Notes under the pieces: generated by a model
Told to the model about the DNA's origin: nothing
What the model saw: only the letters and a program-made list of their open reading frames with translations
Database searches by the model: none
Assembly (NCBI GenBank): GCA_938003835.1
Contig: CALKXJ010000012.1
Location: forward strand, 124,001-188,000
Direction of reading: 5' to 3'
DNA from: an uncultured Bryobacteraceae bacterium
GTDB taxonomy: Bacteria > Acidobacteriota > Terriglobia > Bryobacterales > Bryobacteraceae
DNA: 64,000 nucleotides
Made by a program: the position numbers and the translations under genes
Shown here: positions 43,414 through 45,192 of the stretch, in pieces
Layout of the letters: the number at the start of each line of letters is the position of its first letter
Numbering within the stretch: position 1 is the first letter of the stretch

Positions 43414-43689
43414 ATGGCCGGTCGCCAACAGTTGCGGGTGCGACGGGACGTCTTGCTCGGAATTGCTCTTCTCGCCGCGATCGCTCTCGCTGCTCCAAGT
43501 CACGAAGCCTCGCATCACGATGCCGGCTGCTCGCTGTGCACCATCGCCGCCGCGGGCTTCGTCGCAGCCGCGCCGAGCGAGGTGGCCGCTCACTGGACCG
43601 AGCTCGAGCGGCTGACCCCGGCCGATGAGAAACTCGCCTTTAGCGACCGCGCCCAACGTCAAGGCGCACGCGCCCCACCCCTGCAATAG
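43414..43689 (+). CDS. small His/Cys protein, possible exported metal-binding protein
   Basis: A 91-residue product. A hydrophobic segment (13-27) resembles a signal. Then SHEASHHDAGCSLCTIAAAG (residues 29-48) clusters three His (30, 34, 35) and two Cys (39, 42) in an HxxxHHxxxCxxC arrangement, suited to a metal site. The rest is Ala/Glu-rich. Similar short HHxxxC proteins precede copper or iron receptors in other bacteria. AGAAGG before ATG 43414 could be an SD. It is the first of four plus-strand genes rich in Cys; whether it belongs to their unit is inferred. No family name is claimed. Confidence 0.5.
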   Translation: MAGRQQLRVRRDVLLGIALLAAIALAAPSHEASHHDAGCSLCTIAAAGFVAAAPSEVAAHWTELERLTPADEKLAFSDRAQRQGARAPPLQ

Positions 43690-43829
43690 TTCCCCGGCGC
43701 AGATCGGCGGCGAGTCGCCCTCGTCGTCTGGCCCAGGCAGGGAAGCTCCTGCATTTTTGCAACTGCCCCGGCGGCAAGCCGCGCCCGCTGAAATGCGCAC
43801 GCGTCCGGCGGGGCCCTGAGATCAATCTC

Positions 43830-43839
43830 AAAAGGAGAG
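43830..43839 (+). promoter_or_regulatory. strong ribosome-binding site of the IscU-like gene
   Basis: AAAGGAGAGG, with about 11 nt to the GTG at 43851, decides the start of the IscU-like gene. The 160-nt spacer before it contains no recognised gene. Confidence 0.7.
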
Positions 43840-43850
43840 GTGTTCCCCGC

Positions 43851-44231
43851 GTGAGTTGTTGCTGTAGTCTGTGCGGTAATAGCCTTCAAGAGCTGTTCGA
43901 GGCTGCTTTGCGGAGGCGGCATTGGAAAGGTCCGGCCCACCGTAAGGGTGTGGCGCATGATCCGGACGAAGACCTCACCGTTGTTCTGTACCTGGATATC
44001 CAGGATTGGACAATTATTCGGATCGACTACCAGGCCACCACCTGCGCCACCCTTCTGGCGTATTGCGAGTTATTAGTGAATCTGGCGGCCGGCAAGTCGC
44101 CGCAAGAGGCGCTGGCGCTGACCGATTCGGACCTGGCGGAACGGGTGCGGGGCGTTCCGCTCCAACGCCGTTCGCGGGCTGCTTTGCCGATCGCCGCGCT
44201 TCGCGCAGCCTTAGATTCGCCTCAAAGCTGA
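43851..44231 (+). CDS. degenerate IscU/NifU-like scaffold protein with a Cys-rich N-terminus
   Basis: A 126-residue protein. MSCCCSLCGN opens with four Cys at residues 3, 4, 5 and 8. The rest resembles an IscU/NifU fold: the strand pair VVLYLDIQDWTIIRIDYQATTC (C65) in place of the usual xxTxGC, then ATLLAYCELLVNLAAGKSPQEALAL (C72), matching the ASSSxxxxxxxGKxxxEA helix. In normal IscU a third Cys follows (HC); here the equivalent region is QRRSRAALPIAALRAAL with no Cys. It may thus bind a cluster or sulfur differently. GTG start with a strong SD (AAAGGAGAGG). The next gene is a DsrE-like protein. Confidence 0.7.
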   Translation: MSCCCSLCGNSLQELFEAALRRRHWKGPAHRKGVAHDPDEDLTVVLYLDIQDWTIIRIDYQATTCATLLAYCELLVNLAAGKSPQEALALTDSDLAERVRGVPLQRRSRAALPIAALRAALDSPQS

Positions 44232-44280
44232 CTCATGTCGCAAGGGCAGATGAGTGAAGCAGGAAAATCAGGAGAAAGCC

Positions 44281-44619
44281 ATGAAAGTTGCATATATTTT
44301 TGCCACCACGGGACACAATGTGTCCTACAAGTTAGGCCGGATGATTCTTCCCCAGCTGGAGGAAAACCGCCACGGGGCCGAAGTCGTAGGGATGTTTTTC
44401 TTCGAGGATAATACTTACATTATGCGTAAGGGGGATCCCATCGGCGAAAGACTGGTAAAGGTCGCCCGGGAGAAGAATATACTTTTAATGTGCTGCGATC
44501 AGTGCTGTTACGAGCGCGACATCGCCGACAAATTGTTTGATGGCGTCGGCATCGGTTGCTTCCCGGATTTGTACCGGGCATTGAGCACGAATCCGCCGGA
44601 CCAGGTGATCACCCTCTAG
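44281..44619 (+). CDS. DsrE-like small protein with paired Cys motif (possible SaoD-type)
   Basis: A 112-residue DsrE/TusD-fold protein. The N-terminal strand is KVAYIFATTGHNVSYKLG. FFFEDNTYIMRKGDPIGERL precedes CCDQCCYER (C71, C72, C75, C76), then GIGCFPDLYRALSTNPPDQVITL (C93). From memory this end resembles the DsrE-related SaoD proteins of the selenocysteine-assisted organometallic cassette; I cannot verify that, and the transporter and selenoprotein partners are not seen. Codons are AT-richer than neighbours (ATA, TTA, AAT), which suggests transfer. ATG 44281 is chosen for CAGGAGAAAGCC just upstream. DsrE-like proteins act as sulfur carriers. Confidence 0.72.
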   Translation: MKVAYIFATTGHNVSYKLGRMILPQLEENRHGAEVVGMFFFEDNTYIMRKGDPIGERLVKVAREKNILLMCCDQCCYERDIADKLFDGVGIGCFPDLYRALSTNPPDQVITL

Positions 44620-44655
44620 CCGATTGCCCCCGCCCAGGCACAAGATCGTCCAGAA

Positions 44656-45192
44656 ATGCAACTGCCCGAAGCGCTGGCGGAACGCGGAGCGCGCCTGCTC
44701 CACCAGCAGTGCTGGTGCTGGGGATACGATATTCGGCGCCCGGAGGGCAATCTGCTGATCGATTTTGGCTTCGTGCGGGAACGCCCCACTGCGCCGGCAA
44801 CGGGCAGCTCGCATTACCGGAAGCGGATGGGTGAAATTCAGGTTCACCTTTGGGGCTTTGGCGTCGTCTGGGAGGAGCGCAGGGGCGCTTGTTATGTCAA
44901 TCGCTACTACTTTAGGCCAACGCCGGTGGATTTGGCCTGTCTGGAAAGACCGATCTGGAGTCCAGAAAGTCTGCTGCTCCTGCCGGCAGGGGCTGTTCCC
45001 CGGACTCAGTTAGTCGAGCAGCTCGCCGCCATCTGCTGTTTCGCCGCCTGCTACGAGGATTGGATCGTGCGCCGGCTCGGGCTTGCTTATCGCGAGGCCG
45101 CGCTAAGGGGTTGGGACCAGACGGCGGCGGAGGCGCCGCGGTTGTCGGCGGCGTGGAGGAAAATCGCCGGGCAGATTCTCGACCTGCTTTGA
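44656..45192 (+). CDS. unrecognised Cys-rich protein in the DsrE/IscU cassette
   Basis: A 178-residue cytoplasmic-looking protein with seven Cys. QQCWCWGYDIRR (C19, C21) opens it. GACYVNRYYF and VDLACLERPIW follow, and QLAAICCFAACYEDWIVRRLG has three more. Two Cys pairs and a single-residue spacing (CWC) suggest redox or metal chemistry. Aromatic residues are abundant. I recognise no family. It starts 36 nt after the DsrE gene with only a weak SD. It ends before a 177-nt GC-rich gap preceding the LytTR gene, in which no gene is recognised. Confidence 0.55.
   Translation: MQLPEALAERGARLLHQQCWCWGYDIRRPEGNLLIDFGFVRERPTAPATGSSHYRKRMGEIQVHLWGFGVVWEERRGACYVNRYYFRPTPVDLACLERPIWSPESLLLLPAGAVPRTQLVEQLAAICCFAACYEDWIVRRLGLAYREAALRGWDQTAAEAPRLSAAWRKIAGQILDLL

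Follow-up and report, generated by a model that had tools for sequence, protein, structure and literature searches.

The locus examined here raises the question of whether a run of four consecutive genes in an uncultured Bryobacteraceae bacterium encodes one system, and what such a system would handle. The window, meaning the whole 64,000-nucleotide stretch that was analysed, covers positions 124001-188000 of contig C12 in a host genome of 5.0 Mb (labelled G000). A preliminary description had placed four plus-strand genes unusually rich in Cys at 43414-45192, had called their products an HHxxxC protein, an IscU-like protein, a DsrE-like protein and an unrecognised 178-residue protein, and had raised the possibility that they form a sulfur- or metal-handling system whose layout has not been described. 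The four ORFs were found at that place and on that strand (Table 1). Among the 57 window genes selected with a basic criterion on ORFs and GC3, P2, P3 and P4 rank first to third in Cys content (4.8%, 4.1% and 3.9%, respectively; median 0.85%), and P1, with 2 Cys (2.2%), ranks sixth; the unusual Cys richness is thus a property of the last three genes and not of P1. The intergenic gaps are 161 bases for P1-P2, 49 for P2-P3 (counted to the ATG of P3) and 36 for P3-P4. A literature search, with most subscription papers outside its coverage, returned no paper on the P2-P3-P4 layout.

Table 1. Positions of the four genes in the window
Gene	Position	Strand	Description
P1	43414-43689	+	ORF, 91 aa
P2	43851-44231	+	ORF, 126 aa, GTG start
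P3	44281-44619	+	ORF, 112 aa from ATG; alternative GTG at 44254 gives 121 aa
P4	44656-45192	+	ORF, 178 aa

P1 is probably a separate gene outside the P2-P3-P4 unit. Its hydrophobic N-terminus is followed by HHxxxCxxC (SHHDAGCSLC), which bears out the motif described earlier, and it scores 18.2 bits against Pfam DUF2946, under the cut-off of 23.7. No match to P1 was found beside the other two P2-P3-P4 trios (L017 and L206, described below), and on that ground P1 was rejected as a member of the cassette. With an ad hoc motif, small P1-like proteins were counted at 5 of 21 P4 loci outside the trios and at 0 of 80 P3 loci (the best 80 of 149), counts that are only a hint because the two sets of loci differ in taxa. 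A P1-like ORF also lies elsewhere in the same genome, on contig C12 at about 30.8-31.1 kb (L149:3805-4116); it is 39% identical to P1 over 51 aa (E 1.5e-5) and has a hydrophobic N-terminus and the pattern H..H.....CxxC.

The label IscU-like holds for P2, which scores 29.7 bits against Pfam NifU_N (cut-off 22) and whose family profile retrieves IscU/NifU chains from the PDB with E values down to 1.1e-15. An AlphaFold2 model built from 30 rows has a mean pLDDT of 92.2. Its best 20 PDB matches in Foldseek have TMq values of 0.71-0.80, and 19 of these 20 (TMq >= 0.71) are to IscU-type proteins as listed, SufU included. When P2 is aligned with the genome's own IscU (L001), C65, which is invariant in 30 of 30 aligned rows, is the sole ligand Cys common to both, and the CGD and HC sites are replaced in P2; these three positions are the cluster-ligand Cys sites of IscU. 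As judged from alignment and predicted structure, P2 is an IscU-fold protein that retains one of the three cluster-ligand Cys. It shares the fold and C65 with the IscU, NifU N-terminal and SufU scaffolds; unlike them, it has lost the CGD and HC ligand sites and gained a Cys-rich N-terminus. No match to P2 was found on plasmids.

P3 belongs to a family already named by NCBI, a point on which the preliminary description needs correction: it scores 181.6 bits against NCBIfam NF040913, 'SaoD/DsrE family protein', above the cut-off of 152. Its score against Pfam DsrE is 18.8 bits, under the cut-off of 22.7. Against the SaoD model NF040732, P3 reaches 143.3 bits (cut-off 169). C72xxC75 and C93 were aligned in 8 members of the family, and all three Cys are invariant; no relative of P3 was found among PDB sequences at E <= 0.1. 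The nearest named relatives are Bryobacteraceae (Acidobacteriota). On plasmids, P3 matched 32 records, 29 of them from Thermus, whose long-form P3 has no telling neighbour. In Thermomicrobium, a Fur-type repressor gene and a metal ABC transporter are followed by a long-form P3, which favours a role in metal handling. In two haloarchaeal plasmids (L153 and L156), long-form P3 adjoins rhodanese and YeeE/YedE genes.

One scan of genome contigs with three short forms of P3 gave 149 relatives, the best 80 of which were kept for locus counts. P2 is encoded directly upstream of P3 in 29 of these best 80 of 149 loci (tblastn, worst E 2e-7), and a profile built from the linked P2s adds a partial P2 in L117. 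The two genes overlap by 1-38 bases in 22 of the 29 loci, are separated by 8-11 bases in 5, and by 49 and 113 bases in the other 2. In the P3 tree, which has few columns and a bootstrap that had not settled, one well-supported set of 33 rows contains all 31 P2-linked rows (those of the window and of G892 included), the two remaining rows being L046 and L117. The labels of the P2-linked rows name five phyla (Acidobacteriota, Pseudomonadota, Chloroflexota, Spirochaetota and Zixibacteriota), of which single ones may be wrong because most of the rows are MAG contigs; named strains among the carriers are Aquisalimonas lutea and Halomonas ramblicola. Gene order thus identifies P2-P3 as a conserved pair, in which a protein with the predicted IscU fold minus two of three cluster Cys nevertheless has a DsrE-like protein as its partner across loci whose labels span five phyla.

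The pair is joined by an importer in some bacteria. Genes for a binding protein, an ATPase and a permease lie upstream in 13 of the 29 P2-P3 loci, all 13 from Pseudomonadota; a binding protein plus permease was found upstream in 0 of the 51 P3 loci without P2 (both sets from the best 80 of 149), 7 of which have less than 3 kb upstream, too short to show a whole importer. Eight of the 13 binding proteins were aligned, and they have in common a CC near the N-terminus and the motif CSQxLC. L082:3013-5561 is one example of such an importer, with 12 similar loci. Aquisalimonas lutea CECT 8326 and Halomonas ramblicola CECT 7896 each have all five genes, the three of the importer and the P2-P3 pair. 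The best model for the L082 permease is SaoP, at 97.8 bits against a cut-off of 295, and TauC is close at 93.6 bits. SAO is the selenocysteine-assisted organometal system (PMC13188914); the parts that the accessible portion of this review names include neither P2 nor P4. Membership of the cassette in SAO was rejected, given the scores under the SaoD and SaoP cut-offs. In the window, no such ABC importer adjoins the cassette.

The gene order P2-P3-P4 is common to three Bryobacteraceae genera, represented by the window, G016 (locus L017) and G892 (locus L206). Five flanking proteins from the window have no match in L017 or L206 at E <= 0.001; in G016, about 330 bases at most separate P4 from the downstream end of the contig. 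P3 of the window shares 90 and 93% identity with its two counterparts, P2 and P4 47-52%. The P4 model that detected the gene in a search of 396 genomes of the phylum was also applied to the 29 other genomes with P2-P3 (the partial P2 of L117 counted) and found P4 in none of them; this absence makes the trio narrow and P4 no general partner of the pair. The co-occurrence across genomes that had been proposed as a check is therefore seen for P2 and P3 and, in three genera, for the trio, and it fails for P4 in the 29 other genomes with the pair that were searched. L044, a near relative by P3, has P2-P3 without P4 anywhere in its genome. A Fur-family gene precedes the pair there (L044:5078-5467), which favours metal handling; its best NCBIfam match is PerR, under the cut-off.

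P4 had been described as unrecognised, and the profile searches agree: it represents an unnamed family that neither Pfam nor NCBIfam covers with a model, none of 10 members having a Pfam match better than E 0.047 or any NCBIfam match. The family carries the motifs QCWxWGxDI and GNLL. In 12 divergent rows, no variation is seen at Q18, W20, W22, G23, D25, N32, L33 and L34, and hardly any at C19; since C19 is the only Cys that approaches invariance, most P4 Cys are particular to the lineage of the window. With the window genome counted, searches for P4 gave 10 positives among 61 relatives, 15 among 160 genomes of the order and 8 among 396 of the phylum; the phylum of Aquisalimonas gave none among 398 genomes, at most 8 candidates per genome being scored in the two phylum searches. 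P4 had no match among PDB sequences at E <= 1, in viral contigs or on plasmids. A structural model built from two rows (window and L045) is of poor quality, with a mean pLDDT of 54.6, and Foldseek gave no match for it at E <= 0.001; P4 is accordingly assigned no fold.

Outside the trios, the neighbourhood of the P4 family is, by gene annotation, a strong metal context. A CobW/COG0523 gene is present in the fetched stretch at 14 of 21 non-trio P4 loci, which speaks for metal handling; a FeoB-like gene lies directly upstream of P4 in 8, the order CobW-WD40-P4 occurs in 7, and a P-type ATPase like that of L023 in 3. COG0523 and zinc are the subject of PMC2770081. The L023 CobW protein scores 557.8 bits against ZigA, a model named 'zinc metallochaperone GTPase' with a cut-off of 600; a P-type ATPase encoded in that locus passes the cut-offs of the models for the heavy-metal and cadmium families. 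In L024, a second type of CobW lies near P4; its best match is another GTPase model and not ZigA, which argues against zinc. Among the remaining loci, L145 has an ArsP_1 permease and a Fur gene, L146 has a Gate protein and a flavoprotein on the opposite strand, and L148 has none of the reference genes; a contig end is near P4 in L143, L144 and L211.

The same association was seen at the level of whole genomes. A strong PF02492 match (E < 1e-40) was found in 16 of 20 non-trio P4 genomes, in 4 of 32 P4-negative genomes (those with no P4 match in the searches of 61 relatives or 160 genomes of the order) and in 0 of 3 trio genomes, one of which, G016, is 62% complete. Fisher values of 1.4e-6 and 0.02 serve only as a guide, because the 55 genomes were chosen from those already seen and kinship was uncontrolled. 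A strong COG0523 match is also missing in 28 of the 32 P4-negative genomes. In the window genome, the best PF02492 match has an E value of 3.4e-21 and falls on an ORF that is HypB-like by eye, so the type of COG0523 gene associated with P4 was not found there. Zinc chaperone loci of the ZigA type thus host members of the P4 family in other Acidobacteriota, placing an unnamed family beside putative zinc chaperones; the loci of the window, G016 and G892 differ in that P4 adjoins P2-P3 there and their genomes give no strong match to COG0523.

The idea of a sulfur or metal handling system survives for P2-P3-P4, because the pair is conserved, the trio recurs and P4 elsewhere has a metal context; it does not extend to P1. 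Our tentative reading, which we regard as possible and hold with less than even confidence, is that P2-P3-P4 is one unit and acts in the cytosol to carry a thiophilic metal, zinc being the likeliest, by means of thiols. A metal, or a metal together with a thiol ligand, would be passed between Cys of P3 and P2; the ligand would be zinc, and P4 would receive the metal or dock a client. P4 may play the same role beside COG0523 GTPases in most other carrier genomes, and P2-P3 would then stand in for COG0523. In this form, P2-P3 would be a GTPase-free metal delivery device that replaces COG0523 as the partner of P4; in Proteobacteria the pair would make up the innermost part of a dedicated ABC importer whose binding protein carries Cys. 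We consider this further step unlikely, the more so because most P4-negative genomes also have no strong COG0523 match. If the replacement did occur, it would offer a second system to compare when asking what the cargo of COG0523 GTPases is and which proteins receive it. Part of the regulatory evidence speaks against zinc: only one of 80 loci (best 80 of 149) has a Fur-family gene near P3, and no shared palindrome resembling a Zur box was recognised by eye in 15 upstream stretches. For the Fur proteins of L044 and L147, the best scores, under the cut-offs, are with PerR or Fur models and not with a zinc regulator.

Three other explanations were weighed against this metal carrier. In a sulfur relay, P3 would take up a persulfide and give it to C65 of P2, a single-Cys acceptor with the IscU fold, and P4 would be a client or helper. 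DsrE/TusD proteins accept persulfide and SufU-type proteins are sulfur acceptors, so that a DsrE-like P3 and a P2 with SufU among its matches suit such a relay, and the rhodanese and YeeE/YedE genes adjoining the haloarchaeal long-form P3 are the reason this reading keeps weight. The surroundings of the cassette point the other way: none of the five window neighbours tested with Pfam (an aldo/keto reductase, a Dabb protein, a LytTR regulator, an inositol phosphate synthase and a transaldolase) is a sulfur gene, and the neighbours of P4 elsewhere are metal genes. The Tus/Dsr relay consists of a DsrE-DsrF-DsrH set with TusA. The cassette shares with it a DsrE-like protein; unlike that relay, it has a single DsrE-like gene and no DsrF, DsrH or TusA among the neighbours tested, and P1, P2, P4 and the five neighbours gave no Pfam match to the DsrE family or to the TusA/sulfur-carrier family. 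We judge a sulfur relay unlikely.

Import of a thiophilic or organometallic compound in the manner of SAO, with the importer of Proteobacteria feeding P2-P3 and the Bryobacteraceae keeping P2-P3 without an importer, would explain why the importer is found upstream of P2-P3 and at none of the P2-less loci, why its binding proteins carry CC and CSQxLC, and why SaoP and SaoD are among the matches of the L082 permease and of P3. We think it quite unlikely, as both scores are under the cut-offs, TauC fits the permease nearly as well as SaoP, the 13 importer loci are confined to Pseudomonadota and the window cassette has no importer alongside. It is more improbable still that there is no joint system at all, with P2-P3 forming a module whose function is unrelated, next to which P4 and P1 lie by chance or descent. 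The absence of P4 from the other P2-P3 genomes, L044 among them, the origin of the other two trios in the same family and the failure of P1 to be kept beside them would all fit; against it stands the same gene order in three genera with no common flanks, despite a divergence of P2 and P4 to 47-52% identity. The metal carrier remains the reading we prefer.

Some minor features of these loci may be recorded. The protein between CobW and P4 in L022 (L022:7006-8303) is a 348-aa WD40-like protein, and six other P4 loci carry one in this position; an 84-aa protein lies between it and P4 in L022, and neither protein has an NCBIfam match. The protein upstream of P4 in L023 (L023:4446-6074) has 542 aa with FeoB_N and Gate domains and scores 95.6 bits against the feoB model, whose cut-off is 315.65. 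In the window, a terminator-like hairpin lies between P1 and P2, in a region with 4 such sites compared with 2.3 (sd 1.5) in shuffles. At 0.65-0.73, the GC3 of P1-P4 falls below the values of most of the 57 window genes, as if the stretch had been acquired.
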